Made by a program: the position numbers and the translations under genes | The notes under the pieces: generated by a model | What the model was told of the DNA's origin: nothing | Database searches by the model: none | The model's input: only the letters and a program-made list of their open reading frames with translations | Shown here: piece by piece, positions 47,927 to 62,824 of the stretch | Numbering within the stretch: the stretch's first letter is position 1 | How the letters are laid out: each line of letters starts with the position of its first letter | DNA from: Marinitenerispora sediminis | GTDB taxonomy: Bacteria > Actinomycetota > Actinomycetes > Streptosporangiales > Streptosporangiaceae | DNA length: 62,824 nucleotides | Assembly (NCBI RefSeq): GCF_003336425.1 | Contig: NZ_QEIO01000011.1 | Coordinates: forward strand, 1-62,824 | Direction: 5' to 3'

Positions 47927-49729
47927 ATGGGCACGACAAAATCTGACATGGAATTGCTCCGCGCCTACGAGCCGGTGCTGGTCTATACCAAGGGCGAGCT
48001 GTTCTTCCCCACCGCGATCGAGGACTACCTCAACTGCTGCAGCCTGTGGCTGGAGCTGCCCGGTGGGAAGGAGCAGGAGGTCGTTGCGGCGGGAGAGCTC
48101 ACCGTCGAGCGGCTGTCCGGGGCCGAGCGCGAGTGGCCGGGCCACCACAAGCACCTGCGGTTCGTGCAGGAGACCTCGCTGCGCGCCGAGGCGCGCCGCT
48201 ACCGCCGCAGCGCGCGCCCGGTGATCCCGAGGAGCGGCCGCCTGGCCGCGGTCGGGGTGCTCGGGCGGGTGGTCGACGTGCTGATGAAGCTGTCGCTGCT
48301 GATCCGCGGCGCGGTCCCGGGCGGGGTCGCGGCCGCGGCCGCGACGCGCTACAGGGACCGGCTCGACTCGGGCGGCGCGACCTACTACGGCCGGGTCATG
48401 CGGGAAGGCGGCTACGTCATCCTGCAGTACTGGTTCTTCTACGCCATGAACGACTGGCGGTCCACCTACGGCGGCGTCAACGACCACGAGGCCGACTGGG
48501 AGCGCGTCACCGTCTACCTGGTGGAGACCGCCGACGGCGGTACCCGGCCGGTGTGGGTGGGCGCGTCCTCCCACGAGTACACCGGCGACGACCTGCGCCG
48601 CAGGTGGGACGACCCCGAACTGCACCGCGACGGCGACCACCCGATGATCTTCGTCGGGGCCGGATCGCACTCCCACCAGATGCTGCCGGGCGACTACCTG
48701 ATCCAGGTCGACCCCGCCGTGCTGCGGGGCGTGGTGCGCGCGTGGCGGGCGGTCACCCAGCGGCTGTTCCCCAGTACGAGCGCGATCGTGCGGCACGGCA
48801 TCGGGGTGCCGTTCGTCGACTACGCGCGCGGCGACGGGGTCCGCGTGGGCCCGGGGGGCGAGCGCGCCTGGTCGCCGGTGCTCATCGATGACGACACCTC
48901 GTGGGTGCGCGGCTTCCGCGGCCTGTGGGGCCGCGACACCCGCGACTGGTTCGACGGGGAGCGCGCCCCCAGCGGCCCGCGCTACGAGCGCGACGGCACG
49001 GTCCGCGCCTCGTGGGCCGACCCGCTGTCCTGGGTGGGGCTGCACAAGGTGGCCCCCAGCGAGACGGCCGCGCGGGCCGAACTCCTGGCGCACGTGCGGG
49101 AGCTTGAGGAGCGCATTGACGAGGCCGACGCCGACATCGTCCGCCGGCGCGACGAGATCCGGCGGCTGGCGTCGGCCGACATCGTCCTGCAGCGCCGGGC
49201 GCACGCCGCGTCGCGGGCCCGGGAGAAGCGCGAGCGGATCGCGGAGGCCGAACGCGAGCTCGCCGCCCGGCACCGCGAACGCGCCCTGTGGGCCGACGAA
49301 CGCGACAACCACCGCGAGGCGCTCGCGAGCGGCGAGTCGCTGGAGCACGGGCCGCAGGCCCACCTGCGCTCGCCACACCTGCCCTACGCGTCCGGGAAGC
49401 AGCGCCCGACCCGCTTCCTGCACGTGTGGGCCGCGCTGAGCACCCCGCTGCTCATCACCTCGCTGGGCGCCCTCCTGCTGCTGCGCGGCCCGCTCGCGCC
49501 CCTCGCCGGCATCGGCGTGGTCCTGCTGTTCGCGATGTTCGACGCGTTCGCCCGCCGCAAGCTCATGTCGTTCCTCACCGGCCTGGCGATCTTCGCCGTC
49601 GTCGTCGCAGCGGTGGCGGGTATCATCGCGGCCTTCATGGCGAACTGGCGGATCACCATCCTCGTGCCGATCGTCCTCGTCGTCGTCATCCTGCTGGTGG
49701 TCAACGTCCGGGACCTGCTGCGCCGCTAG
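47927..49729 (+). CDS. Vps62-domain protein with C-terminal membrane helices
   Basis: The 600-residue protein contains a Vps62/DUF946-like core with VILQYWFFYAMNDWRSTYGG, then NDHEADWERVTVYLVETADG, SHEYTGDDLRRRWDDPEL and GDHPMIFVGAGSHSHQMLPG. The YWFFY and NDHEADWE blocks define the family, better known from fungi and plants but also present in bacteria. A charged coiled coil (about 370-460) and four transmembrane helices (505-597) follow, anchoring it in the membrane. Function is unknown in bacteria. The ATG at 47927 starts GTTKSDMELL; the HTH gene is divergent. Confidence 0.88.
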   Translation: MGTTKSDMELLRAYEPVLVYTKGELFFPTAIEDYLNCCSLWLELPGGKEQEVVAAGELTVERLSGAEREWPGHHKHLRFVQETSLRAEARRYRRSARPVIPRSGRLAAVGVLGRVVDVLMKLSLLIRGAVPGGVAAAAATRYRDRLDSGGATYYGRVMREGGYVILQYWFFYAMNDWRSTYGGVNDHEADWERVTVYLVETADGGTRPVWVGASSHEYTGDDLRRRWDDPELHRDGDHPMIFVGAGSHSHQMLPGDYLIQVDPAVLRGVVRAWRAVTQRLFPSTSAIVRHGIGVPFVDYARGDGVRVGPGGERAWSPVLIDDDTSWVRGFRGLWGRDTRDWFDGERAPSGPRYERDGTVRASWADPLSWVGLHKVAPSETAARAELLAHVRELEERIDEADADIVRRRDEIRRLASADIVLQRRAHAASRAREKRERIAEAERELAARHRERALWADERDNHREALASGESLEHGPQAHLRSPHLPYASGKQRPTRFLHVWAALSTPLLITSLGALLLLRGPLAPLAGIGVVLLFAMFDAFARRKLMSFLTGLAIFAVVVAAVAGIIAAFMANWRITILVPIVLVVVILLVVNVRDLLRR

Positions 49730-49757
49730 CCCCCGGCGCGGCCGCCGACCGGCCGTC

Positions 49758-49795
49758 CCCCGCCCCCGGCGCCGCGTGCGGTGCCGGGGGCGGGG
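49758..49795 (+). terminator. Strong hairpin terminator after the Vps62-domain gene
   Basis: A perfect 13-bp stem, CCCCGCCCCCGGC with its complement, and a 12-base loop lie 29 bases past the stop. Confidence 0.8.
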
Positions 49796-49965
49796 CCGCC
49801 GGCGGCCGCCACCCGGCACGTCGCGGGCATGGGACGCGAGTGACCCGCGTGCGGCACGGGTTTTTCCCGCGCGGGGGATGGACATTTCCGGCCGTCCGCC
49901 GATCGGGCGCTGTCCGGTTTTTGGGGGTATCTACTCCGAGAAACCGTCGAGCTTGGGGGCCGGGC

Positions 49966-51210
49966 ATGGAAGAGTTCAGCCGCAGACGCCAGGACCACCC
50001 GCGTCTCCCGTCTCCCGCCATGCCGGCCAGCGGGACGGATCCGCAGCCCTACCCCGTGGTGCCGCTGGCCGCCCGGGCGCCGGAGGACCTCCCCGGCACC
50101 GCGCCGCCCACCTTCGGGGTCGAGGAGGAGTTCTTCGTCGTCGACGCCGACACCCGGCAGGCGAGCGCCCAGGCGCCGGAGGTGCTGGCCGCGGCCCGGC
50201 CGACCGGCGCCGAGCTGTGCGCCGAGATCACCCGCTTCCAGGTGGAGGCGGCGAGCCCGGTCTGCCGGACGGCCACCGAGCTGTCCGCCAGCCTCGTCTC
50301 GGCCCGCCGCTCGCTCACCGAGGCCGCCGCCGCGCACGGCCTGGCCGTGGTGGCCAGCGGCACCGCGGTGCTCGGCGACGTGGGGTCGGCCCCGCTGAGC
50401 GAGGGGCGCCGGTACCGCGCGATCGCCGAGCGCTTCGGCGCGCTGCGCGACGCCCACGTGGTGTGCGGGTGCCACGTGCACGTCGGCATCGCCGACCGCG
50501 AGGTGGCGCTCGCGGTCGCCAACCACCTCCGCCCGTGGCTGCCCACCCTGCTCGCGCTCACCGCCAACTCGCCGTTCCGGCGCGGCCGCGACACCGGGCA
50601 CGCCAGCTGGCGCTCCGTCATCTGGGCGCGGCTCCCCTCCGCCGGCCCGCCGCCCTGGCTCGGCTCGGTCGCCGAGCACGAGCGCGCGGTCACCGAGATG
50701 CTGCGCACCGGGGCCATCCTGGACCGCCGCATGGTGTACTGGGACGTCCGCCTCTCCGAGCACCTGCCCACCTTGGAGATCCGGGTCGGCGACGTGGCGG
50801 CTACCGCCGAGGAAGCCGTGCTGTTCGCGGTCCTGGTCCGCGGCCTGGTCAGTGTGGCGCTCTCGCAGGTCGCGGCAGGGGACCCCGCGCCGCCGCTCAG
50901 CGACCGCGCGCTGCGGCTGGCCATGTGGCGGGCCGCCCGCGACGGCCTGGAGGGGCACGCCCTCGACCCGTTCTCCGCCGACCTGGTGCCCGCGCGCCGC
51001 CAACTCGACCGCCTGGTCGAGGCGGCGATGCCCGGACTCACCGCCGACGCCGAGGGCGAACTCGTCGAGCGGCTGCTGCTGCGCCTGTTCTCGCTCGGCT
51101 CGGGGGCGCACCGCCAGCGGACCGCCTACGCGCGGCGGGGGCGGCTCTCCGACGTCCTGGACCTCCTGGTCCGCCAGACGACGCACGGCCTCGACGCCGC
51201 GGAGCCGTGA
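49966..51210 (+). CDS. YbdK-type carboxylate-amine ligase (glutamate-cysteine ligase 2)
   Basis: The 414-residue ATP-grasp-like/GCS2 enzyme shows the hallmark FGVEEEFFVVDADTRQAS at about residue 50. CGCHVHVGIADREVALAVAN, then LRPWLPTLLALTANSPF, LEIRVGDVAATAEEAVLFAV and the C-terminal LVEAAMPGLTADAEGELV follow. YbdK-class enzymes form an amide bond between glutamate and an amine with weak GCL activity; the true substrate is unknown. A 30-residue Pro-rich head precedes the domain. The ATG at 49966 has GGGGGCCGGGC upstream. Confidence 0.93.
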   Translation: MEEFSRRRQDHPRLPSPAMPASGTDPQPYPVVPLAARAPEDLPGTAPPTFGVEEEFFVVDADTRQASAQAPEVLAAARPTGAELCAEITRFQVEAASPVCRTATELSASLVSARRSLTEAAAAHGLAVVASGTAVLGDVGSAPLSEGRRYRAIAERFGALRDAHVVCGCHVHVGIADREVALAVANHLRPWLPTLLALTANSPFRRGRDTGHASWRSVIWARLPSAGPPPWLGSVAEHERAVTEMLRTGAILDRRMVYWDVRLSEHLPTLEIRVGDVAATAEEAVLFAVLVRGLVSVALSQVAAGDPAPPLSDRALRLAMWRAARDGLEGHALDPFSADLVPARRQLDRLVEAAMPGLTADAEGELVERLLLRLFSLGSGAHRQRTAYARRGRLSDVLDLLVRQTTHGLDAAEP

Positions 51211-51228
51211 TCCGATCGCCCGCCGGCA

Positions 51229-51897
51229 TCAGCGGGCGGGCAGCCCGGAGGCCCGGATGGTGATGTTGAGCCGCCCCGAGGAGAGCCCGCACTCGGGGTC
51301 GGCGGTGCCCGGCAGGGTGCGCGGCACGCCGTGGTAGGCCATGCGGGACGGGCCGCCGAAGACGAACAGGTCGCCGCCGCGCAGTTCGACGTCGGTGTAG
51401 GGGCGGCCCCGGGTCTCGGGGTTGCCGAAGCGGAAGACGCAGGAGTCGCCGAGGCTGAGCGACACCACGGGGGCGTCCACGCGCTCCTCCCGGTCCTGGT
51501 GCAGGCCCATGCGGGCGTCGGCGTCGTAGAAGTTCACCAGCGCCACGTCGTAGGGCGGGGCGTCCGGCGGCGGCGGAGCGCCGTAGGCCGCGGCGACGGC
51601 CGCGCCGGCGAGTTCGCCGAGCAGCGGCGGGAACGGCTTGACCGGGGTGCCGTCCGGCAGCGTCCGCGTGTAGCGGTACGGCGCCCAGTGCCAGCCGAGC
51701 GACACGATCCGCACGCTCATCTCGCCGCCGCGCGGCATCCGGTGCCGGCGCATTCCGGCGGGGCCGGTGGCCCAGTCCCGGCAGCGCCGGACGAGGTCGC
51801 GCTGCCGCTCCGCGTCCAGCCAGCCCGGCACGTGCACGGCGCCGGGCGCGACGGTGACCGGCCCGTCCGGCCGCGGATCGAACAGCGCGCCGCTCAC
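51229..51897 (-). CDS. alkB: AlkB-like 2-oxoglutarate/Fe(II) dioxygenase
   Basis: The 222-residue protein has the AlkB layout: a nucleotide-recognition region with MRRHRMPRGGEMSVRIVSLG, the iron ligands HxD in MGLHQDREE, the distal His in MAYHGVPRTLPG and the 2-oxoglutarate arginines in GRLNITIRASG. YTRTLPDGTPVKPFPP fits the substrate lid. It should oxidatively remove alkyl lesions such as 1-methyladenine. The GTG at 51897 overlaps the stop of the acetyltransferase gene by four bases (GTGA), so the two are coupled. Confidence 0.93.
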   Translation of the reverse strand: MSGALFDPRPDGPVTVAPGAVHVPGWLDAERQRDLVRRCRDWATGPAGMRRHRMPRGGEMSVRIVSLGWHWAPYRYTRTLPDGTPVKPFPPLLGELAGAAVAAAYGAPPPPDAPPYDVALVNFYDADARMGLHQDREERVDAPVVSLSLGDSCVFRFGNPETRGRPYTDVELRGGDLFVFGGPSRMAYHGVPRTLPGTADPECGLSSGRLNITIRASGLPAR

Positions 51898-52436
51898 GGC
51901 CGCGCCGTCCCCGGCCGCAGGTAGCGCACCTCCGGTATCGGAGCGCCGGCGTGGAAGTCGCGCTCGCGGCCGTCGGGGCTGAACCCGCACGCCTCGTAGA
52001 ACCGCCGGGCCCGCTCGTTGTCGCGGAACGTCCACAGCGAGACCGCTCTGCCCTCCCCGATATCGCGCAGCGCGGCCGCCATCAGCGCGCGGCCCACGCC
52101 TCGGCGCCAGTGGCCGGGCACGGCGTAACACGCGTAGATCTCGTGGACGCCGGCAGCGGCGTGGTCGGGGTCCCGGGACGGGCCGGCCGCGAGCCAGCCG
52201 ACCACGTCGCCGCCGACCTCGGCGAGGTACTCCCGCACGCCCGGGCGGGGCGCCCGCAGCAGCCCCTCGCGGGCGGCGGGGTCGGGCGCCATCCGGTCCA
52301 GGAACGCGTCGGGGACGATGCCGCGGTAGGCGGCGCGCCAGCCCGACACCCGCACGGTGGCGATCGCCCGGCCGTCGCCGGCCGCCGCCCGGCGGACCCG
52401 CACGGCCGCCGCCTGCCGCGCCTGGTCGGTGCTCAT
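51894..52436 (-). CDS. GNAT-family N-acetyltransferase coupled to alkB
   Basis: The 180-residue protein carries VRRAAAGDGRAIATVRVSGW, the central YACYAVPGHWRRGVGRALMA (with RRGVGRA as pyrophosphate loop) and the final RDNERARRFYEACGFSPDGR. These are strong GNAT signatures. Substrate unknown. Translational coupling with the AlkB-like gene hints at a shared stress response, but similar pairs may also be accidental. The ATG at 52436 follows a spacer of about 80 bases from the OsmC gene. Confidence 0.93.
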   Translation of the reverse strand: MSTDQARQAAAVRVRRAAAGDGRAIATVRVSGWRAAYRGIVPDAFLDRMAPDPAAREGLLRAPRPGVREYLAEVGGDVVGWLAAGPSRDPDHAAAGVHEIYACYAVPGHWRRGVGRALMAAALRDIGEGRAVSLWTFRDNERARRFYEACGFSPDGRERDFHAGAPIPEVRYLRPGTARP

Positions 52437-52516
52437 GGCCCCATCCGACCACGTCGCCGCCCGGCCGGGCAACCGCCCCGCCGCCGTCCGTCCGGCGCGG
52501 CGGGGCGGCCCCGGGA

Positions 52517-52945
52517 CTACTCCTCCAGGGCGGCGTCCAGCGTGATCGTGGTGCCCGCGAGCGCCTGGCTGACCGGGCAGCCGGTCTTCGCGGCCTCGGC
52601 GGCCTTCGCGAAGTCGGCGGCGCTCAGGCCGGGGACCTGGGCGCGCACGGTGAGGTGGATACCCGTGATGCCCGTGCCGGGCTTGAAGGTGACGTCGGCC
52701 TTGGTCTCGACGGACCGCGGCGGCGTCCCGGCCTGGGAGAGGCCGTGGCTCAGCGCCATGGAGAAGCAGGAGGAGTGCGCCGCCGCGATGAGCTCCTCCG
52801 GGCTGGTGCGGCCCTCGGAGACGTCGGAGCGCGCCTTCCAGGTCACGTTCTGGTCCGGCAGGCCGGAGGAGTCGAACGAGACGGTGCCCTGGCCCTCGGC
52901 CAGAGTGCCCTCCCAGCGGGTGTGGGCGGTGCGAACAACAGGCAT
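52517..52945 (-). CDS. OsmC-family organic hydroperoxide reductase
   Basis: The 142-residue protein contains both redox cysteines: the peroxidatic one in ELIAAAHSSCFSMALSHGLS and the resolving one in AAKTGCPVSQALAG. The start VVRTAHTRWEGTLAEGQGTV is typical of OsmC/YhfA-type proteins. It should reduce organic hydroperoxides with thiol donors. GAGAGT lies eight bases before ATG 52945. It is followed on the same strand by the GNAT/AlkB pair, making a small stress-related set. Confidence 0.95.
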   Translation of the reverse strand: MPVVRTAHTRWEGTLAEGQGTVSFDSSGLPDQNVTWKARSDVSEGRTSPEELIAAAHSSCFSMALSHGLSQAGTPPRSVETKADVTFKPGTGITGIHLTVRAQVPGLSAADFAKAAEAAKTGCPVSQALAGTTITLDAALEE

Positions 52946-54385
52946 GGCGACTCTCCTCTTCGAACAGCGGTGAACGGACTGCGCACCGCGCCCGCGCCGT
53001 CGGGCGGTGCGGAACGGCGGCGCCGACGATCATCCCACTCGGGGCCCGTCCAGCCCACCGTATCGACCCGCGCTGCCGGAGGATTCAGCCGCATGGGGGT
53101 GCGGCGGCCCCGGGCCCGGAGCCGACCGGGGCGGCCGGTGCCGTGGTGCCGGCCGGCGCCCGGGGCGCGCGCGTGGTGCTCCCCCCCCCGCGGTCCAACC
53201 TCGTGGACACCCCGGCCAGGGCCCAAGGCCCGCCGGGCGCGGCGCCGCAGGGCCCGGCGGAGCTGCTCCCCGCACCCGGCGTGCGCCTCCTTGACGCCCA
53301 CGAACGCGCTGCGAGGCACCGCGGCCCCGCGCCCAGCCGCCGCTCGATGTCCCGTCCCGGGCGCCCGACGACCTTCCCGGCACAGGTTCAGGCGCACCCC
53401 GCGACGCGGATTCGACCGTGCGGAACCGGGGGGGAGGGCCCGCCAGGTGCCGCGCCGCCGGACCGGCCCGCTGGCGGCGGTGATCGGGGAGGAGGTGCGG
53501 CCTCCTCCTCCCCGCGAGCGGGGCCGGAGCCGGCCTGAGCTCGCCGGAGGCCACGCGGGCGGGCACCGGCGAGGCCTTCTCCGTGTGCGGAGGCCGCAGC
53601 GGCGCCGCCGGGCCGCGGGCGAGAACAGGTCGAGGTCGGCGACGCGGTCGCCGACCGTGAGCGTCCACCGCGCGTAGCGCCACTCCGACATGGGGGAGAG
53701 GCTGACGGATCGGTAGTTCGCGCGGTACCGGGCGAGTCCGCCCGGGGAAAGGACGCAGGGCAGGCGCGGTGGCCGCTGCGGGAACGCGTCGGCTTCCGAG
53801 GTGCGGCGCACCGCCAGCCGCGCGTTCCGCTCCACCAGCCGCAGCCCCCAGCCCCCGATCCCGCCGCGGCTGCCCGGGCGCGGGGTGCCGAACGCTGCCG
53901 CGGGGCGCTACCCGTGGTCGCCGTGCAGCACGACGTCGTGCAGCGGGACTCCGGCGGCGTCCGGCTCGGTGCCGGGCGGGAGCGCGGCCGGCAGAGGCAA
54001 GGCGCCGGCGGGTGACCGCGCGCTCGCGCGCCGCCGCGGCGCCGCGGTTCTCCGGGGACCACCAGACGGCGGTCCGCTGCGCGGTGATCCGCGCAGCTTC
54101 CGCTCCGCACGTCCGTCATGCGGCCAGTAGGGGAGCGCCGGCGGTCCGGCGCCAGCCCGGCCTCTCCCGCGGGCGCACGCCCGCGTGGCGCGGGACCGGC
54201 CCCGCCGCTCGGGCGGGCCGGGCGGCGGACGGGGAAAGCGCCGGACGCGGAATGCGGCGCCCGGACGAATCTGGGCGGCCGGCGGTGTTCGGGACCGCGT
54301 CCCGGATCCGTTTTCTCCGCGCCCGGTCGCCGTGGAATTCGGCACCCGGCGGATTCGAGGCGGAACCGCCTTCCCCGGAGGGTGG
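52946..54385. other. Long gene-poor stretch with a possible decayed gene
   Basis: About 1.4 kb without a convincing intact gene. On the minus strand, between about 53600 and 54000, one frame gives protein-like segments HDVVLHGDHG, a stop, then LRLVERNARLAVRRTSEADA, RYRANYRSVSLSPMSEWRYA and VGDRVADLDLFSP. The in-frame TAG and the loss of coherence after LDLFSP suggest a decayed gene of unknown family. A GGAGGAGG/CCTCCTCC hairpin lies near 53490. Confidence 0.45.
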
Positions 54386-54406
54386 TACGTGATTTTGATT
54401 TTCCGA

Positions 54407-54436
54407 TTGAGTGCCTTGCTAATTTAATTGTATAGT
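54407..54436 (+). promoter_or_regulatory. Candidate sigma-70 promoter of the carrier-protein operon
   Basis: TTGAGT (54407-54412) and TATAGT (54431-54436) are separated by 18 bases in an AT-rich block (about 54385-54520) that contrasts sharply with its surroundings. Transcription would start about 175 bases before the decarboxylase gene, leaving a long leader. Confidence 0.65.
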
Positions 54437-54617
54437 GATCCGCGTCCCGAATTCGAAGGGGATTTAGTTTTCGATTTTCGGGTGACCGTGAAATCTATTC
54501 ATCGATGATTCTCGCCCCGTCGCCGCGGCGACTCCCGGCCCGGCCGCACCGGTCAGAAACCGGCGGCCCCCGGACCGGCGGCGGCCCGCGGACCGATCGA
54601 GGAGACCCGGGGAGTAC

Positions 54618-55823
54618 ATGAACCACCCATGCACCGGCACCGTCGAGGCCGGCACCCACCACCAGCGGATCCGCGCCTTCATGGCCGCTCATACCGGTCC
54701 GACGCCCTTCCTGGTCGTCGACCTCCCGACCGTGGCGCGGTGCTACCGGGCGCTTGCGGGCGCCTTCGGCTCCGCGCGGGTGTTCTACGCCGTCAAGGCC
54801 AACCCCGAGCCCCGCCTGGTCCGGCTGCTCGTCCGGCTCGGGGCGTCGTTCGACGTCGCGAGCCGCAGCGAGGTCGACCTCTGCCTGGCCGCCGGGGCGG
54901 ATCCGGCGTCGCTGTCCTACGGCAACACGGTGAAGAAGGCGTCGGACATCCGCTACGCCCACGCCCGCGGAGTGCGGCTGTTCGTGTTCGACAGCGCGGA
55001 GGAGCTGCGCAAGCTCGCCGAGCACGCGCCCGGCTCCCAGGTCTTCTGCCGGCTACTGGCGAGCGGCGAGGGCTCGCTGTGGCCGCTGAGCCGCAAGTTC
55101 GGCTGCGCCCCCGATATGGCCGTCGAGCTGCTGCGGGCCGCGCCCGCGCTCGGGCTGGACCCGGTCGGGGTCTCCTTCCACGTCGGCTCCCAGCAGCTCG
55201 ACCCGGCCCGGTGGGACCCCAGCATCGCGCAGGCGGCACGGATCTTCGCCGAGCTGGAGTCGGTCGGCGTGCGGCTGCGGATGCTCAACGTCGGCGGCGG
55301 CTTCGCCACCGACTACCTGCGGCCGGTCCCGCCGATCGACGCCTACGCGGCGGCCGTCCGCGCCTCCGTCCGCCGCCACTTCCGCGTGCCGCCGAGCCTG
55401 GTCGCGGAGCCGGGGCGCTACCTCGTCGCCGAGGCCGGGGTCCTGCGCTGCGAGGTGGTGCTCATCTCGCGCAAGCACCACCACGACGAGAAGCGCTGGG
55501 TGTACCTGGACATCGGCCGCTACGGCGGGCTCATCGACACCGAGGGCGAGGCCATCCACTACCGCCTGGTCACGGCCCACGACGACGGCCCCGGCGGGCC
55601 CGTGATCATCGCCGGCCCCACCTGCGACAGCGTCGACATCCTGTACGAACGCGCCCCCTACCGGCTGCCGCTGGCCCTGCGCCCGGGCGACCACGTCGAC
55701 ATCCTGGGCGCCGGCGCCTACACGGTGTCCTCCGCCACGGTCGGCTTCAACGGCATGGCGCCGCTGACCGCCCACTACATCGGGTCGGAGTTCCCGAGCG
55801 CCGCGGACGCCGACGGCGAGTGA
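54618..55823 (+). CDS. Fold-III PLP-dependent amino acid decarboxylase
   Basis: The 401-residue enzyme is an ornithine/diaminopimelate-decarboxylase-like protein. The PLP lysine is Lys60 in VFYAVKANPEP. DVASRSEVDLCLAAG, SFHVGSQQLDP, the phosphate-binding GGGF and EPGRYLVAEAGVL complete the barrel. The C-terminal cysteine/aspartate motif is GPTCDSVD (Cys336). The GPTCDS form points to the ornithine/lysine decarboxylase branch rather than LysA. It opens an operon containing a carrier protein and an adenylating ligase. By analogy with BtrK, the substrate could be a carrier-bound amino acid rather than a free one. The ATG at 54618 follows GGAGACCCGGGGAG. Confidence 0.93.
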   Translation: MNHPCTGTVEAGTHHQRIRAFMAAHTGPTPFLVVDLPTVARCYRALAGAFGSARVFYAVKANPEPRLVRLLVRLGASFDVASRSEVDLCLAAGADPASLSYGNTVKKASDIRYAHARGVRLFVFDSAEELRKLAEHAPGSQVFCRLLASGEGSLWPLSRKFGCAPDMAVELLRAAPALGLDPVGVSFHVGSQQLDPARWDPSIAQAARIFAELESVGVRLRMLNVGGGFATDYLRPVPPIDAYAAAVRASVRRHFRVPPSLVAEPGRYLVAEAGVLRCEVVLISRKHHHDEKRWVYLDIGRYGGLIDTEGEAIHYRLVTAHDDGPGGPVIIAGPTCDSVDILYERAPYRLPLALRPGDHVDILGAGAYTVSSATVGFNGMAPLTAHYIGSEFPSAADADGE

Positions 55824-56052
55824 CCGCCGCACCCCACACGCCCGCCGTGCCCGCCTCATCCTGGCATGACCGTTCGGACATGCCGATCGGGTGGCCATGT
55901 GAGGCTTATGCGCCCGCGTCCGGCGGGAGACCATCCCAGTGCGCTCTTCTTCCCGGCGACGGGTCCCGGAGCGTGGCCGGAGAACGGCCGCTGTCACGCA
56001 CGGAACACGAGCACGAGATGGTCCCCCAGAACCGGCTCCGGGTAGGTAGACC

Positions 56053-56868
56053 TTGCACGCGATCATCATGGCTGGCGGTAAGGGAAAACGGCTACTCCCG
56101 CTCACCGAGGACCGGCCCAAAGGGCTGATCCCGGTCGGCGGATCTCCCATCCTCGACATCATCATCCGGCAATTGACCACCGCCGGATTCAGCAGAGTCA
56201 CATTGTGCGTCTCGCATTTCGGCGACATGATCCGCCGGAGGTTCTCCGCCGCGAGCTTTCCGGGCGCCACGCTCGACTTCAGCGTCGACCGGGTCGCCCT
56301 GGGCACCGCCGCGCCGCTGCGATGGGTCGAGCGGTGGGACACCCCCGCACTCGTCATGAACGGCGACGTCCTCACCACGCTGGACTTCCGGCACCTCTAC
56401 GAGGAGCACGCGCGCGGCGGCGCCCTGCTGACCGTCGCCGCGCAGCGCCACGAGGTCCCGGTCGACCTCGGCGTGCTCCAGATCGCCGGCGGCCGGGTCC
56501 GGGGGTTGTGGGAGAAGCCCCGGCTGGGGCTCGACGTGAGCTCGGGAATCTACGTCGTCAGCCCCGGCGCGCGCGAGCGGCTGGATGACGACGTCACCGA
56601 CATGACCGACCTCATCCTGCGGCTCGTGGAGCACGGCGACCCGGTCACCGCCTACGAGTTCGGCGGCGAGTGGCACGACATCGGCACCCCGGACCGCTAC
56701 GAGCACGCCGAGCGGGAGTTCACCGCCCACCCCGAGCGGTACCTGGGGCCCAAGCGGGTCGCCGGGCGGGTGCGGCGGGAGGCTCTCCCGGTCGCCGCAC
56801 CGGGCGCGTGGCCGCGCCAGGCCGAGACACGCTTCGACGTCGCGCTCATCGCGAGCTGGGCCCGATGA
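56053..56868 (+). CDS. Sugar-phosphate nucleotidyltransferase
   Basis: The 271-residue protein has the NTP-transferase signature IIMAGGKGKRLLPLTEDRPK with GLIPVGGSPIL, the metal aspartate in LVMNGDVLTTLDF, and GLWEKPRLGLDVSSGIYV with the sugar-binding EWHDIGTPDRYEHA. It activates a sugar-1-phosphate to an NDP sugar, like RmlA/ManC-type enzymes without a C-terminal left-handed helix. TTG 56053 is used because the conserved motif starts immediately after it; GGTAGGTAG precedes it. Its stop overlaps the next gene's ATG. It lies 229 bases after the decarboxylase. Confidence 0.92.
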   Translation: MHAIIMAGGKGKRLLPLTEDRPKGLIPVGGSPILDIIIRQLTTAGFSRVTLCVSHFGDMIRRRFSAASFPGATLDFSVDRVALGTAAPLRWVERWDTPALVMNGDVLTTLDFRHLYEEHARGGALLTVAAQRHEVPVDLGVLQIAGGRVRGLWEKPRLGLDVSSGIYVVSPGARERLDDDVTDMTDLILRLVEHGDPVTAYEFGGEWHDIGTPDRYEHAEREFTAHPERYLGPKRVAGRVRREALPVAAPGAWPRQAETRFDVALIASWAR

Positions 56869-57185
56869 GCGCGGTACCGACCGACCAAGGCAGCACGGAT
56901 CGAACAGGGGTAGCGATGACGGTTGAGCCGGACGAGCTGGTCCGCGAGGTCGCGACCGAGATGGGCGAGGTGCTGGGGCGCCCCGCCCTCGCCGAGGACG
57001 AGGACTTCTTCGACAGCGGAGGCGACTCCTACCGCGCGATCGAGATCATCACTCGCCTGGTCGCCAGGTTCGGGCCCAAGGAGGAGACCGCCGCCGAGGG
57101 CCTGCAGGCCGACCTGCTGCTGGCCATCTTCGACGAGTCGACGCCCGCCGCCGTCGCCTCCCTGCTGCAGCGGCAGGAGCGGTGA
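56865..57185 (+). CDS. Acyl/aminoacyl carrier protein
   Basis: The 106-residue product contains a phosphopantetheine-binding domain with DEDFFDSGGDSYRAIEIITR; Ser55 in GGDS is the attachment site. The GGDS form with an aspartate before the serine is usual for peptidyl-type carriers. Overlap ATGA with the preceding gene supports ATG 56865; ATG 56916, behind CAGGGGTAG, would give a compact 89-residue carrier and is equally plausible. It directly precedes the AMP-forming ligase, its probable loading partner. Confidence 0.93.
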   Translation: MSAVPTDQGSTDRTGVAMTVEPDELVREVATEMGEVLGRPALAEDEDFFDSGGDSYRAIEIITRLVARFGPKEETAAEGLQADLLLAIFDESTPAAVASLLQRQER

Positions 57186-58675
57186 GCCGCCCCCTGTCGG
57201 CGGTCCACGGCCCCGGAGCCGTCGGCGAACTCCGCGCCACGCTCCGCCGGTACGCCCGCGCCCACCCCGACCGCGCGGCCGTGCGCGCCGGCCCCGACGG
57301 GGACGACGCCCTGTCATGGCGGCTGCTCCACGACCGCGCCAACGACGTGGCGGCCAACGCCCACGGTCTCACCGGGCGCCCGGGACCGGTGGTCCTGCTG
57401 CTGGACAGCACCCCGGCCTCGGTGGCGACCCTGCTCGGGCTCCTCCTCGCCGCCGCCGACCTGCTTCTCGTCGAGGCCGACAACTCCCACCTCGCCGACG
57501 AGGGCTCGGCGGTACGCGGCGCCGGGCCCGCCGCGATCGTGGTGCCGCCCGGCCGCCGGCCCGTGGTCCCGGACTCCATCCCGGTGTACGACTACGCCGA
57601 CCTCGCCGGGCCGCACCGCGCGCCGTCCGCGCCCGGCCGCCCCGACCACCGCGACCCGGCCGTCCTCCAGCTCACCTCGGGTTCCACCGGTGAGCCCCGG
57701 ATCACCCGCCAGACCCTGGGCGCGGCCCTGCGCGGCGCCGCCGCCTACCGCGAGGTGTACCGGCTCGGCGGTGCCGACACCTCGCTGGTCACCGTGCCCC
57801 TCGCGCACGCCTTCGGCCTCATCTGCGGGGCCCTCACCGCGCTGACGTCCGGCGCCACCCTCGTCACCGTCCCCCGGTTCACGGTGCGGGCCGTGCTCGA
57901 CGGCCTCCGCTCGGGGGCCACCGTCCTGCTCGGGGCGCCGCTGGGCTACGAGCTCCTGGCGGCGGCCCTGCCCGCCGGCGCACCCCCGCCGGAACTGCGC
58001 CTCGCGCTGTCGTCCGGCAGTCCCCTGCCGGAACGCACCCGCGCCCGCGCCACCGCGGCCCTGGGCCGCCCCCTCCACCAGGTCTACGGCAGCACCGAGG
58101 CCGGGCTGATCGCCTGCCAGTACGATCGCGCGCAGCCCTGGCCCGAGGAGAGCGTGGGTCTGGCGGGCCCCGGGGTGCGCTGGCGCATCCGCCCCTCAGC
58201 GCCCGGGGAGTCCGAGGGGAGCCTGCTGGTCAGCACACCCGCCATGTTCCGCGGCTACCTGGACGGCCCGGCCGCCCTCACCGCCGACGGCTTCCTCGAC
58301 ACCGGCGACATCGCCCGGGTCGACGAGGCCGGGCACCTCTTCCTCGTCGCCCGCAAGAGCACCTTCGTCAACGTCGGCGGACGCAAGGTCAACCCGCGGC
58401 GGATCGAACGCATCGCCGAGCAGCACCCCGGTGTGCGGGAGATCTCCGTCTTCGGGGTGGGCGGCATCGACCGGGAGGAGCAGCTCCACGCCGCCGTCGC
58501 GCTGGAGGCCGGCACCGGGGCCGAGGAACTCCTCGCCCACTGCCGGTCGCGGCTGATGCCCTACGAGGTGCCGCGCCACGTGCACGTCTACGACCGACTG
58601 CCCCGCACCGGCATGGGCAAGGTCGACCGCCGCAAGCTCATCGAGTCCGTCGCCCATCAGGCAACCAGGGGGTAG
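57182..58675 (+). CDS. AMP-forming acyl/aminoacyl ligase loading the carrier protein
   Basis: The 497-residue adenylating enzyme has the A3 loop [25 protein letters not shown], the A5 block HQVYGSTEAGLIACQYDR, A7 FLDTGDIARVDEAGHLFLVA, A8 KSTFVNVGGRKVNPRRIE and the catalytic C-terminal Lys in RTGMGKVDRRK. It is a stand-alone ligase, so it probably adenylates an acid and passes it to the carrier encoded just upstream, with which it overlaps by GTGA. The substrate code cannot be assigned: the usual Asp of alpha-amino-acid A domains (A4) is not obvious, which leaves beta-amino, omega-amino or simple carboxylic acids possible. Confidence 0.93.
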   Translation: MSRPLSAVHGPGAVGELRATLRRYARAHPDRAAVRAGPDGDDALSWRLLHDRANDVAANAHGLTGRPGPVVLLLDSTPASVATLLGLLLAAADLLLVEADNSHLADEGSAVRGAGPAAIVVPPGRRPVVPDSIPVYDYADLAGPHRAPSAPGRPDHRDPAVLQLTSGSTGEPRITRQTLGAALRGAAAYREVYRLGGADTSLVTVPLAHAFGLICGALTALTSGATLVTVPRFTVRAVLDGLRSGATVLLGAPLGYELLAAALPAGAPPPELRLALSSGSPLPERTRARATAALGRPLHQVYGSTEAGLIACQYDRAQPWPEESVGLAGPGVRWRIRPSAPGESEGSLLVSTPAMFRGYLDGPAALTADGFLDTGDIARVDEAGHLFLVARKSTFVNVGGRKVNPRRIERIAEQHPGVREISVFGVGGIDREEQLHAAVALEAGTGAEELLAHCRSRLMPYEVPRHVHVYDRLPRTGMGKVDRRKLIESVAHQATRG

Positions 58676-58679
58676 CACC

Positions 58680-60035
58680 GTGTCCCAGACCAGCGTGGCA
58701 GTAGCAGAGCCGACGGATACCGCGTCGCGCGGCCGCGACCCCGTCGCGGTCGTCGGCCTCGGCTACGTCGGCCTGCCGCTCGCCCTCGCCCTCGCCGGCA
58801 CCGGCGCCCGCGTCGTGGGCGTCGACACCAGCGCCCGTGTCCGCGAGTCGCTCGCCGCCGGCCGGCCCCTCTTCGTGGAACCCGGGGTCGAGGAGGCGCT
58901 CCGCGCGCTCTCGCCCGAGGAGTTCGCCATCACCGACCGGCTCCCCGACACCCCGCCGCGCGCCGTGATCATCTGCGTGGGCACCGCCGTCCACGCGGAC
59001 TCGCGCGAGCCCGACCTGCGGCACCTGCGCGCCGCCGCCGCGCACGTGGCCGAGCACGTCGCCGACGACACGCTCGTGATCGTCCGCAGCACCGTACCCG
59101 TGGGTACCTGCCGGGAGATCGTCCTGCCGCAGCTGCGCCGGCGGGTCACCGACCCACTCCTGGCGTTCTGCCCGGAGCGCATCATCCAGGGGCGGGCCAT
59201 GGCCGAACTCGCGTCGCTGCCGCAGATCATCGGCGGCCTCGACCGGACCTCCGCGGCGCGCGCGGGCGAACTGCTGAAGAGCGTCGCCGGCGACCAGATC
59301 ACCGTCTCCTCGCTGGAGGCGGCCGAGATGATCAAGCTCATCTGCAACGCCCACACCGACCTGCTGTACGGCTTCGGCAACGAGATCGCGCTGCTCGCCG
59401 CACCCCTCGGACTGGACGCCGACGAGCTGATCTCCGCCGCCAACCTCCGCTACCCGCGCCCCGACCTCGCCCGTCCCGGGTTCGTCGGCGGCAGCTGCCT
59501 CACGAAGGACCCCTACCTGCTCCTGCACACCGCCGAGCGCGCCGGGCACCGCCCCCCGCTCGTCGCGGCGGCGCGCGAGATCAACGAGCAGGTGCCCGGG
59601 CACGTCGTGGAGCGGGTCCTCGCCGCCCTGGAACGCGCCGGCCGCCCGGCCGAGACCGCCAAGGTGCTGGTGTGCGGCATCGCCTACAAGGGCCGGCCGG
59701 TCACCGACGACGTGCGCGGGGCGGCCTCGGTGCAGGTCGCGGCGGCGCTGCGGGACCGCGTCGCCGTCCTGGGCGGCCACGACTTCGTCGTCGGTCCCGA
59801 CCGGATCGCCGAACTCGGCTACCGGCCCATGGAGCTGGAGGAGGGCCTGACCGACGCCGACGCCGTGGTGCTGCTCGTGGACCACCCCGGCTACGCACGG
59901 CCCGAGAACACCGCCCACCTCGCCCGCATGCGGCGCCCGTCGGTGGTGTTCGACATGTGGGGGCTGCTCCGGACGGAGTTCGGCGCACCCACCGGGCCCC
60001 AGGGCATCGAGTACCTGAGGCTGGGCCGTGGCTGA
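58680..60035 (+). CDS. UDP-glucose/GDP-mannose-type nucleotide sugar dehydrogenase
   Basis: The 451-residue NAD enzyme has the Rossmann start VAVVGLGYVGLPLALALAGT, the catalytic-site blocks STVPVGTCREIV, CPERIIQGRAMAEL and the active cysteine in FVGGSCLTKDPYLLL. The third domain motif GIAYKGRPVTDDVRGAASVQ is typical for the WecC/UDP-ManNAc-dehydrogenase branch as well as for UDP-glucose dehydrogenase. It makes a UDP-uronate from a UDP-hexose. The GTG at 58680 comes four bases after the preceding stop. Together with the following SDR gene it suggests a uronate-to-pentose or epimerised uronate path. Confidence 0.94.
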   Translation: MSQTSVAVAEPTDTASRGRDPVAVVGLGYVGLPLALALAGTGARVVGVDTSARVRESLAAGRPLFVEPGVEEALRALSPEEFAITDRLPDTPPRAVIICVGTAVHADSREPDLRHLRAAAAHVAEHVADDTLVIVRSTVPVGTCREIVLPQLRRRVTDPLLAFCPERIIQGRAMAELASLPQIIGGLDRTSAARAGELLKSVAGDQITVSSLEAAEMIKLICNAHTDLLYGFGNEIALLAAPLGLDADELISAANLRYPRPDLARPGFVGGSCLTKDPYLLLHTAERAGHRPPLVAAAREINEQVPGHVVERVLAALERAGRPAETAKVLVCGIAYKGRPVTDDVRGAASVQVAAALRDRVAVLGGHDFVVGPDRIAELGYRPMELEEGLTDADAVVLLVDHPGYARPENTAHLARMRRPSVVFDMWGLLRTEFGAPTGPQGIEYLRLGRG

Positions 60036-61002
60036 GCGCGCACTCGTCACCGGCGGAGCCGGCTTCGTGGGGCTGCACCTGGTGCGCCGCCTGCTCGCCG
60101 ACGGCGTCGAGGTCACCCTGCTGGACGACTTCTCCCGGGGCCGCCCCGACCGCGACTTCCGAGAACTGGCCGCGCACGTGGCGACGGTCGAACACGACCT
60201 CACGACGCCGATCCCGCCCGGCCTCCTGCCCGGCCCCTACGACGAGGTGTACCACCTCGCCGCCGTGGTCGGTGTGCACCAGAGCATCCAGCGGCCCGCG
60301 CACGTGCTCGCCACCAACCTGCTCTCCACGATCCACCTCGTCGACTGGTGCGCCCGGGCCGAGCCCGGCGCGCTCTTCCTGAGCTCGACCAGCGAGGTCG
60401 CCGACGGTGCCGCCGCCGCGGGCCTGGCCGAGCACCCCACCCGCGAGGACGTGCCGTTCGTCATCGCCGACCTCGGTTCGGCCCGGTCCTCCTACGCGCT
60501 CAGCAAGGCCGTGGCCGAGTCCATGTTCCGCCGGCTGCACGGCCCGTCCCGGGTGCGGATCGGCCGGTACCACAACGTCTACGGGCCCCGCATGGGACGC
60601 CGGCACGTCATCCCCGAGCTGATCGGCCGGATCCTTGAGGGGCGCGATCCCTTCCCGCTGTACGGCGCCTACCAGACCCGGGCGTTCTGCTATGTCACCG
60701 ACGCCGTCGACGCCACCGTGCGGCTGACCCGGCTCGACCACGACGAGCCCCTCGTGGCCAACATCGGAGACGACAGCGAGGAGATCCGCATCGACGCCCT
60801 CGCCCAGCGGCTGTTCCGGATCGCGGGCGTCAGTCCGCGCCTGGAGGTGCACGACCCTCCGGCCGGATCGCCCAGCCGCCGGCTGCCGGACCTCGGCGCA
60901 CTGCGCGGCCTCCTCGGACCGCTGCCCGCCACCCCGCTCGACGAGGGCCTGCGCCGCACCGTCGAGTGGTACACGGCCCACGGGGCGGCCGGCCATGAGT
61001 GA
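60028..61002 (+). CDS. NAD-dependent sugar epimerase/decarboxylase (extended SDR)
   Basis: The 324-residue protein has the Rossmann motif ALVTGGAGFVGLHLVRRLLA and the catalytic Ser/Tyr/Lys set in LFLSSTSEVADG and SSYALSKAVAE. YHNVYGPRMGRRHVIPELIG and AFCYVTDAVDATVRLTRLD follow, a layout shared by UDP-glucuronate decarboxylases and epimerases. Directly following a UDP-sugar dehydrogenase, UDP-xylose (or UDP-galacturonate) synthesis is a good guess. It overlaps the dehydrogenase by eight bases and the glycosyltransferase by eight bases. Confidence 0.92.
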   Translation: MAERALVTGGAGFVGLHLVRRLLADGVEVTLLDDFSRGRPDRDFRELAAHVATVEHDLTTPIPPGLLPGPYDEVYHLAAVVGVHQSIQRPAHVLATNLLSTIHLVDWCARAEPGALFLSSTSEVADGAAAAGLAEHPTREDVPFVIADLGSARSSYALSKAVAESMFRRLHGPSRVRIGRYHNVYGPRMGRRHVIPELIGRILEGRDPFPLYGAYQTRAFCYVTDAVDATVRLTRLDHDEPLVANIGDDSEEIRIDALAQRLFRIAGVSPRLEVHDPPAGSPSRRLPDLGALRGLLGPLPATPLDEGLRRTVEWYTAHGAAGHE

Positions 61003-62098
61003 GGTCCTCGTGGTCTTCGGCGGATACGGCGCTGGGCTGGCGGGCGCCGAGCGCATGGCGTGGCGCACCGCGCAGCACCTCGCGCTGCGCGGGCACGCCG
61101 TCACCGTGGCCACCGACTCCCGGCGGCCGTCCTTCCTGGGCGACACGGCCCTGCGGGTGCTGCGCACCGAGCCGGAGCTGCGGCGGGCCGTCCAGGAGCA
61201 GCCGCCCGAGGTCGTGCACGCCTTCGACCTCGCCCGCCCCGCCCATGTCGCCATGGCGCTGCGCGCCGCCCGCGAGTGCGGCGCCCGCCTCGTGCTCACC
61301 CCGGCCACCACTCCGGAGCTGTGGCCGGACCTCGCCACCGGCCGGGAGGCGTGCGCCGCCGCCGACACCGTCTTCGCCCTGACCCCGACCGAGGCCGCCG
61401 CGCTGCGGGCGCACGGCGCGGCCGACACGGCGCTGCGCCCCCTCCCGCAGGCGGCCGACCTCGTCGGCCGGCCGGATCCGGTGGGTTTCCGCCGCCGACA
61501 CGGCCTCAGCGGCCCGACCGTGCTCTTCGTCGGCCGGCGCACCATCGACAAGGGCTACCCGCGCCTGGTGGCGGCGGCCCCGGAGGTGTGGCGGCGGGTC
61601 CCGGATACCGAGTTCGTGTTCGCGGGCCCGCCCGGCGACGGCGCCGCCGCCGGTCTGCCCGGGCCGCCCGGCGACCCCCGGGTCCACGACCTCGGCATGG
61701 TCGACGACCAGACCAAGCACGACGCGGTGGCGGCCTGCGACGTCCTCTGCCTGCCGACCAGCGCGGACGTGTTCCCGCTGGTCTTCGCCGAGGCGTGGAC
61801 CCGCGGGCGGCCGGTGCTGAGCGGTGCGTTCCCCGGCGCGCACGACGTGGTGCGCGATGGCGTGGACGGCCTCGTCGTGCCGCCCCGGCCCGGCGATGTG
61901 GCCCGCGCACTCGTCCGGCTGCTCACCGACGCGGCGCTGCGCCGGGACCTGGGCGCCGCCGGGCGGCGCCGGGCCCGGCGCGAGTTCACCTGGGAACGCG
62001 TGGTGGCCGCCTGCGAGGCCGGGTACCGGACGGGTGGCGCGGCCCTGACCACGGCCGCCGCCACCGCCCCCCCGCACCGCGCCGCGGGGCCCCCGTGA
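60995..62098 (+). CDS. GT4-family glycosyltransferase
   Basis: The 367-residue GT-B enzyme has the N-terminal GYGAGLAGAERMAWRTAQHL and the C-terminal nucleotide-sugar site with VLFVGRRTIDKGYPRLVAAA and CLPTSADVFPLVFAEAWTRG. The last stretch holds the EX7E motif, in which the first glutamate is an aspartate (D-x7-E). A conserved GRPVL and GVDGLVVPPRPGDVARAL follow. It likely uses the UDP sugar made by its two upstream neighbours. Its ATG overlaps the epimerase gene by eight bases. It is the last gene of the operon inside the window; the acceptor is unknown. Confidence 0.93.
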   Translation: MSEVLVVFGGYGAGLAGAERMAWRTAQHLALRGHAVTVATDSRRPSFLGDTALRVLRTEPELRRAVQEQPPEVVHAFDLARPAHVAMALRAARECGARLVLTPATTPELWPDLATGREACAAADTVFALTPTEAAALRAHGAADTALRPLPQAADLVGRPDPVGFRRRHGLSGPTVLFVGRRTIDKGYPRLVAAAPEVWRRVPDTEFVFAGPPGDGAAAGLPGPPGDPRVHDLGMVDDQTKHDAVAACDVLCLPTSADVFPLVFAEAWTRGRPVLSGAFPGAHDVVRDGVDGLVVPPRPGDVARALVRLLTDAALRRDLGAAGRRRARREFTWERVVAACEAGYRTGGAALTTAAATAPPHRAAGPP

Positions 62099-62824
62099 GC
62101 CGGGTCTCCCGGAGCGGCGGACGAGCGCGGACAGCGCGGGCTGCTGCCGCACAGGGCGCGGCGGTCGCCTCCAGGGAACGCGGCGCGGCCCCCGCCACAC
62201 CGGTCCGGCGGCGGGCCGACGGCGGACCGGCATGCCCCCGGCGCTCCGCCACCCGAGGCCTGCCGCCCCCCGCGGCGGCCGCTCCCTCACGCCGGGTCGT
62301 GCCGCGCAGGGCGGGCGCCGCGGTCAGCGGGGCCGCCGACCTGGGAGCGGGGGCCGGGGCGCGGCCGAGCCAGGGGGCCCGCCCCCGGGCCGGATCGACG
62401 GTCCCGGTGAGCGGGCCCCGCGGTTTCGCCGCCCGTGGCCGGCGCGAGCAGCGGTCCGGCACGGGCCTCGACGGCTCCGGCGCCCGGCGGCCTACCGCGC
62501 CGGGGGCCGGCGACGAGCGCGCCGCTCCCGGGACGGTCACCGCCGACCGCCGTCCGCGTCCCCCGCGGGAGCGCGGTCCTCGCGGACCGCGCCTGCCCCG
62601 TCGCCGGAGCCACCGGCGCAGACACCCGCCGGCCTGGTGACCGACCGGCCTCCCACCCGGGCCGGGCTTGGGCGCGGAAGCCGCCTGCGTCCCGGTTCCG
62701 AACACGACCATGTCCGCCGCCGGACTCGCCCGCGGCGCACCCGGCTCGCGCGCCGTCGCCTCGGTACCCGACCGGCTGGCCGGGCCCGCCCGGCAGCGGC
62801 CGGATGGCCGACCGGAGTCCGCCC
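62099..62824. other. Right-end stretch, no recognised gene
   Basis: About 725 very GC-rich bases after the glycosyltransferase. Frames are open on both strands but encode Arg/Pro/Ala strings without motifs. The operon may therefore end here, or continue beyond the window. Confidence 0.45.

Follow-up and report, generated by a model that had tools for sequence, protein, structure and literature searches.

A putative aminopentose and acyl-carrier gene cassette in Marinitenerispora sediminis, probably part of a hybrid natural-product cluster that a contig end interrupts

What is made by an operon in which a decarboxylase, a carrier protein and an acyl ligase stand among genes for nucleotide-sugar metabolism? 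The question is raised by seven genes near the end of contig NZ_QEIO01000011.1 of Marinitenerispora sediminis (contig C3 below); the window, that is the whole stretch of 62,824 b that was analysed, is this entire contig. An earlier note on the same DNA had compared the decarboxylase, carrier and ligase to the butirosin trio BtrK/BtrI/BtrJ and to the set associated with exosortase A. We favour a different explanation, which we consider probable: the operon belongs to a hybrid gene cluster for a natural product, of which the contig end leaves only one half here; its core is a nine-gene cassette that recurs in other genomes, and its first gene encodes a decarboxylase of free ornithine or lysine. 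The genes and the features next to them are as follows.

54407..54436, + strand: TTGAGT-18-TATAGT, a sigma-70-like promoter match preceding DEC (consensus match only)
54618..55823, + strand: DEC, fold-III pyridoxal-phosphate decarboxylase of the ornithine/lysine decarboxylase type (structure match, motif, tree, neighbours of relatives)
56053..56868, + strand: NT, sugar-1-phosphate nucleotidylyltransferase with a TTG start (PF00483)
56865..57185, + strand: ACP, discrete carrier protein of 106 aa with a GGDS attachment site (PF00550)
57182..58675, + strand: LIG, AMP-forming acyl ligase with the A4 motif PLAHAFGL (PF00501; nearest malonyl/oxalyl-CoA ligases)
58680..60035, + strand: UGD, nucleotide-sugar 6-dehydrogenase of the UDP-glucose to UDP-glucuronate type, GGSC motif (TIGR03026)
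60028..61002, + strand: SDR, extended short-chain dehydrogenase/reductase like UDP-glucuronate decarboxylase (UXS) (structure matches, T-x-E and YxxxK)
60995..62098, + strand: GT4, glycosyltransferase with D-x7-E (Pfam; relatives in four clusters)
62099..62824, no strand: contig end, non-coding in appearance, GC close to 84% in each codon position

Relatives of LIG were sought in three overlapping genome samples, with three or four candidates scored per genome. Seven of 327 genomes of the family matched at E<=1e-45 (its own, G004 at 50%, G235 at 47%, G313 at 45% and three at 33-37%; the G numbers are our genome labels), as did two of 394 genomes of the class at E<=1e-55 (its own and G651, 39%), while a five-row LIG profile matched three of 396 genomes of the phylum at E<=1e-80 (its own, G725 and G407). 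The genus is represented by its own genome alone, and plasmids gave no match to LIG or SDR at 1e-40. We compared 13 to 80 kb of DNA around LIG in eight genomes (G004, G011, G165, G235, G313, G407, G651 and G725, G198 excepted). In four of them, G004, G313, G651 and G725, nine genes are found together: LIG, NT, UGD, SDR and GT4, and genes for a DegT-type aminotransferase, a protein resembling glycoside hydrolases of family 5 (GH5), a zinc alcohol dehydrogenase (ADH) and an aldehyde dehydrogenase (AldDH). Six of the window genes, all except DEC, are kept in G004 and G313, and five of these six, without the carrier, in all four clusters. The order on one strand in G004 is NT-LIG-UGD-SDR-GT4-DegT-GH5-ADH. 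Relatives of UGD are 54-65% identical in G004, G313 and G651 and 43% in G725, and those of NT 40-49% in all four. No other cassette gene was matched around LIG in the remaining four of the eight genomes, where the ligases are distant in three cases (30-35%) and near in one (G235, 46-47%).

The scaffold genes beside the cassette differ from cluster to cluster. Modules rich in ketosynthase (KS) domains are accompanied in G651 by condensation (C) domains and by an A-PCP-C arrangement (adenylation, peptidyl carrier protein, condensation); the parts scanned gave no acyltransferase-domain match, and we infer a system of the trans-acyltransferase type. G725 has carrier-C-A-PCP and C-A-PCP-reductase-amidase, G313 has a KS with carrier, a KASIII-like gene, a C domain and a gene resembling dehydroquinate synthase, and G004 a C domain, an ATP-grasp gene, UDP-galactopyranose mutase and an amidase. 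In G725, a 2.2 Mb actinobacterial genome, the nonribosomal peptide synthetase (NRPS) of the order C-A-PCP-thioester reductase with a C-terminal amidase (L192 5164-10890) is possibly a line for a peptide aldehyde. We found no description of the cassette in the literature on BtrK/BtrJ, madurosamine, pactamycin, the exosortase set and aminopentose clusters, a body of sources available in part, exclusive of subscription papers and retrieved by queries not all of which were aimed at the cassette; this silence is weak evidence that the cassette is new.

C3 ends 726 nt after GT4, before the DegT gene that follows in G004. Another contig of this genome, C93 (8,880 b), carries, from its end and in the matching direction, the genes DegT-GH5-ADH-KASIII-ATP-grasp-BtrK-like. 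Because the gene order of G004 matches the end of C3 together with the genes of C93, direction included, C93 appears to continue the C3 operon, and the other half of the cluster probably includes C105 too, with a MatE transporter, a LuxR-type regulator, an esterase-like gene and a condensation domain. The DegT of C93 is the best match of this genome to that of G004 (61%, the next being 34%), the GH5-like protein is its sole match to the G004 protein at E<=1e-10 (55%), and the BtrK-like gene is 66% identical to its G004 counterpart. The earlier note had stated that no NRPS, polyketide synthase (PKS) or exosortase is present; as the window is a whole contig and the pathway would continue beyond it, this is not readable as absence from the pathway, and the lack of NRPS and PKS genes reflects the contig end. 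A search for condensation domains gave many NRPS matches. C105 also encodes an unclassified protein that is found in G004 and G313 (L153 6852-7673, L101 16534-17403; genomes G000, G004 and G313), adjoins a KASIII-like gene in the latter two, and has no Pfam match in its G000 and G313 copies.

Several points weigh against a single cluster of this kind. C3 and C93 are not connected by any read or overlap, their link being one of synteny, and the ends of both contigs carry non-coding or adapter-like sequence. The AldDH relative (59-61%) lies near the end of yet another contig, C417, not on C93, and apart from it C417 matches the compared clusters only in an ADH paralogue, which lies some 16 kb from it. 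The amidase of G004 and G313 (57% alike between them, with a related domain in G725) finds at best a 38% match in this genome. DegT, SDR and NT all score under the curated cut-offs for any single function. Finally, the near LIG relative of G235 (46-47%) occurs without the cassette, which counts against a fixed link between the two. As to the expected joint itself, the end of C93 (L152 8862-8880) reads CTGTCTCTTATACACATCT, presumably a sequencing-kit transposase adapter, and is an assembly artefact.

Which sugar might be made? UGD passes the model TIGR03026 with 292.9 bits (cut-off 189.8). The best structure matches of SDR are four chains of UDP-glucuronate decarboxylase 1; no equivalog model exceeds its cut-off, though the best matches and motifs fit this enzyme. 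The DegT protein of C93 comes nearest to the models PseC (308.5 bits, cut-off 423.5) and ArnB (276.2 bits, cut-off 631), both under cut-off. Taken together, UGD, a UXS-like SDR and a DegT nearest to PseC and ArnB suggest a UDP-4-amino-pentose. The cassette of our preferred reading thus comprises NT, UGD, SDR, DegT, GT4, GH5-like, Zn-ADH, AldDH and LIG, plus the carrier protein. NT would supply UDP-glucose, which UGD would oxidise to UDP-glucuronate; SDR would decarboxylate this to a UDP-(4-keto)-pentose, DegT would aminate it at C4, and GT4 would transfer the aminopentose. The motif of such glycosyltransferases is usually E-x7-E, and the window enzyme has D-x7-E in its place. The T-x-E and YxxxK residues, whose part in EvdS6 has been discussed (PMC10338323), are present in the aligned SDR, and its expected product is UDP-xylose or a UDP-4-keto-pentose. 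CalS9 releases the 4-keto-pentose, and EvdS6 makes both the keto and the reduced product (PMC10338323). The calicheamicin and everninomicin type of UDP-pentose pathway is similar in that a UXS-like SDR comes after UGD, and CalS9 and EvdS6 yield a UDP-4-keto-pentose (PMC10338323); a DegT gene follows here on C93. Unlike that pathway, the sugar genes in our case are tied to genes for LIG, the carrier, the GH5-like protein, ADH and AldDH.

The second question is what LIG would activate. This ANL enzyme has malonyl- and oxalyl-CoA ligases as its top PDB matches. The 216 bits of gramicidin synthetase chains are the sum of two domains at 106-108, and the entries 5jjp and 5jjq, both of them beta-amino-acid ligases, have 146 and 136 bits. 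An RF motif, visible in the structure-match alignment, is common to LIG and the malonyl/oxalyl ligases; aryl acids, malonate and cinnamate are all candidate substrates. Ligases that adenylate amino acids have an Asp in motif A4. This Asp is absent from LIG in an alignment of five rows, all of which read H-[AS]-F with an invariant H208, and His in its place argues against an alpha-amino acid. LIG is therefore predicted to adenylate a carboxylic acid without an alpha-amine and to load it onto ACP, from which it could be transferred to the scaffold. ACP itself has relatives in G004 (45%) and G313 (44%), resembles the carrier domain with which the G725 NRPS begins (41% over 73 aa), and had no match in the stretch of G651 examined. 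A stand-alone ligase and carrier are also present in the vicenistatin cluster of an actinomycete (VinN/VinL/VinO; PMC11284099); the difference is that LIG scores highest to malonyl/oxalyl-CoA ligases in the PDB list.

For plain glycosylation, the GH5-like, ADH and AldDH genes would be superfluous, which motivates a reading in which the sugar becomes the acyl unit. The cassette would then lead in one line from glucose-1-phosphate to a carrier with its acyl unit, an idea that we regard as possible but rather unlikely. GT4 would move a UDP-4-amino-4-deoxy-pentose unit and the GH5-like enzyme would free it as a 4-amino-aldose, in effect a hydroxylated 4-aminobutyraldehyde; AldDH, which resembles aminobutyraldehyde dehydrogenases, would oxidise this, Zn-ADH would adjust an alcohol, and LIG would attach the gamma-amino acid so formed to ACP, where it would serve as starter or acyl cap. 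Several observations are consistent with this. LIG is found with sugar genes here and in four other genomes, beside differing scaffolds. Two Glu residues of the GH5-like protein, invariant in five rows, align with Glu at the catalytic places of solved GH5 enzymes, where they are the catalytic residues. The best model for AldDH is aminobutyraldehyde dehydrogenase (411 bits in G725 and 378 in G313) and that for ADH is scyllo-inosose 3-dehydrogenase, of cyclitol type (123-149 bits for the copies of G725, G313 and C93). The first domain of the G725 NRPS is a carrier, and among the genes scanned in that genome LIG alone encodes an AMP-binding protein that stands by itself. However, these model scores are below their cut-offs (615 and 450), ADH and AldDH may serve another unit, and glycosyl transfer followed by hydrolysis is a roundabout route. 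The G235 ligase also stands against it: the cassette is missing from its surroundings and that genome gave no GH5-like match at E<=1e-10, though the ligase gene lies beside what looks like the remnant of a cluster, an open reading frame (ORF) in which a truncated ketosynthase is fused to DIOX_N (L091 3073-4395). The full form of the proposal, a portable nine-gene cassette leading from glucose-1-phosphate through UDP-glucuronate, UDP-4-amino-pentose and 4-amino-aldose to a hydroxylated gamma-amino acid loaded on a carrier, as starter or cap for differing PKS/NRPS lines, is doubtful.

DEC occupies a separate place in the operon. On re-reading, all seven ORFs lie on the + strand and span 54618-62098, as the earlier note stated, and its five tight junctions out of six were confirmed: DEC and NT are 229 nt apart, NT/ACP and ACP/LIG each overlap by 4 nt, a gap of 4 nt separates LIG from UGD, and UGD/SDR and SDR/GT4 each overlap by 8 nt. 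Its family calls also agree with Pfam for all seven genes (DEC Orn_Arg_deC_N/Orn_DAP_Arg_deC, NT NTP_transferase, ACP PP-binding, LIG AMP-binding, UGD UDPG_MGDP_dh, SDR Epimerase, GT4 Glycos_transf_1/Glyco_transf_4). Third-position GC is 0.91-0.97 in the seven genes, the codon-position bias of real genes, which is absent from the 229-nt gap and from the 726 nt past GT4. As positions 54000-56200 hold one promoter-like match (shuffle mean 0.1), situated before DEC, and the same consensus scan found none in the gap, DEC and the downstream genes may be co-transcribed.

By sequence DEC is nevertheless no BtrK. Its best PDB matches are lysine/ornithine decarboxylases (5gjm, 194.5 bits; 2plj, 179.7), then ornithine decarboxylases (ODC) up to 146 bits, as against 77.7 and 72.1 bits only for the two BtrK entries. 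The substrate-motif region reads GPTCDSVD in DEC and GPLCTPxD in BtrK and BtrK-like genes, that of C93 among them; the CDxxD motif binds the side-chain amine. A scan of genome contigs gave 46 named loci with DEC relatives, mainly in actinomycetes and alphaproteobacteria, Catellatospora proteins being 64-67% identical, and two of the relatives in plasmid records bear the annotation odc2, ornithine/lysine decarboxylase. Matches to both SpeD and SpeE lie beside the relative in seven of the 46 loci and at both G033 copies (seven of these neighbour proteins were checked by Pfam), and the other 39 have neither within the DNA examined, which was short for some. In a tree of 73 rows (71 different; midpoint root for drawing only; long branches flagged by the tool; one lysA label assigned by us), DEC falls on a side of 53 rows, and the LysA-like rows and the BtrK-like rows of G004 and G313 on a side of 20 (support 100/99); the latter rows stand for the C93 sequence, which a row filter had left out. 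Structure match, motif, tree and the SpeD/SpeE neighbours of relatives agree, so DEC is probably a decarboxylase of free ornithine or lysine that yields putrescine or cadaverine, and the BtrK reading was dropped on the same four grounds. The bacterial ornithine/lysine decarboxylases (Odc2, L/ODC) share with DEC the structure match, the CDSxD motif, SpeD/SpeE near some relatives and odc2-annotated relatives; DEC differs in that it heads a natural-product operon, not a polyamine operon. Its diamine might enter the product or general metabolism. A side observation among such loci is a possible fusion of ODC and AdoMet decarboxylase, a single ORF matching ornithine decarboxylase and SpeD (L052 9974-11518, L053 9680-11518, L086 9809-11512); two of the records are from Kibdelosporangium and the third bears the label Rhodococcus rhodnii.

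The earlier note's version, in which DEC decarboxylates an amino acid on ACP after loading by LIG and the sugar genes glycosylate the product, has in its favour that a fold-III decarboxylase, a carrier and a ligase are adjacent and, given the promoter-like site, perhaps co-transcribed. We nonetheless consider it very improbable. DEC is of the ODC type on all four counts and no counterpart turned up in the other clusters, where two have a BtrK-like enzyme, distinct from it; and LIG is not an ATP-grasp protein and lacks the A4 Asp. Its coupling of carrier and ligase with a sugar operon does recur in other genomes, only without DEC; likewise, the seven-gene set is absent from all 52 loci with a DEC relative, of which 40 span at least 19 kb (weak NT-like matches in three, 32-38%, and a LIG-like one, 31%, in one), and it is the other six genes that are kept elsewhere. 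The proposed likeness to the BtrK/BtrI/BtrJ trio thus fails for DEC (194 bits, against 72-78 for BtrK) and for LIG. BtrJ is an ATP-grasp carrier ligase; LIG is PF00501, and an ATP-grasp gene lies on C93. Butirosin resembles the locus in the carrier of the window and in the BtrK-like and ATP-grasp genes of C93, and differs in that the window DEC and LIG belong to other families than BtrK and BtrJ. The C-terminal decarboxylase domain PF00278 occurs at three places in the genome (DEC, C78 and C93), and the C93 decarboxylase has BtrK as its best structure match (298 bits) and carries CTPxD; any carrier-bound decarboxylation would be performed by this enzyme, not by DEC.

The gene kinds are also those of the exosortase-A-associated set, and a glycan assembly operon, teichuronic-acid-like or for exopolysaccharide (EPS), with an acyl substituent could be imagined as kin to such loci. 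UGD, SDR and GT4 do occur in glycan loci, C105 has its MatE transporter, and TIGR03099 (cut-off 478) gives the decarboxylase of C93 a score of 343 bits. We think this quite unlikely. DEC and LIG are far below the cut-offs (123.9 against 478.45 bits for TIGR03099 and 106.3 against 592.35 for TIGR03098), on which scores the resemblance proposed in the earlier note does not hold and an exosortase-type EPS locus was dropped; the related clusters contain KS, C, A, PCP and reductase domains; and no polymerase or sortase was seen among the genes scanned, no genome-wide exosortase search having been made. A product like the glycocinnamoylspermidine antibiotics, which are aminosugar-coumaroyl-spermidines, would give DEC a role: LIG would load cinnamate, a C domain would join it to a polyamine derived from DEC, and the aminopentose would be attached. 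An ODC-type DEC as first gene of the operon, the C domain on C105 and a spermidine-synthase-family match on C46 fit such a product, but LIG is nearer to malonyl/oxalyl ligases and the matches from the other four clusters include no ODC-type relative of DEC (G004 and G313 checked), which makes it quite improbable.

The upstream flank is ordinary-looking where scanned (window 49288-52945: GCS2, 2OG-Fe(II) oxygenase, OsmC). The corrected assignment of DEC averts a wrong annotation as a BtrK-type enzyme. That natural-product clusters from two or more classes of Actinomycetota share the cassette although their scaffolds are unrelated points to a chemical unit that they have in common. Should the sugar become the acyl unit, the genes would lead from sugar nucleotides to amino acids bound on a carrier and provide a handle for genome mining; otherwise the cassette would still couple aminopentose genes with acyl-carrier genes in an unusual way.

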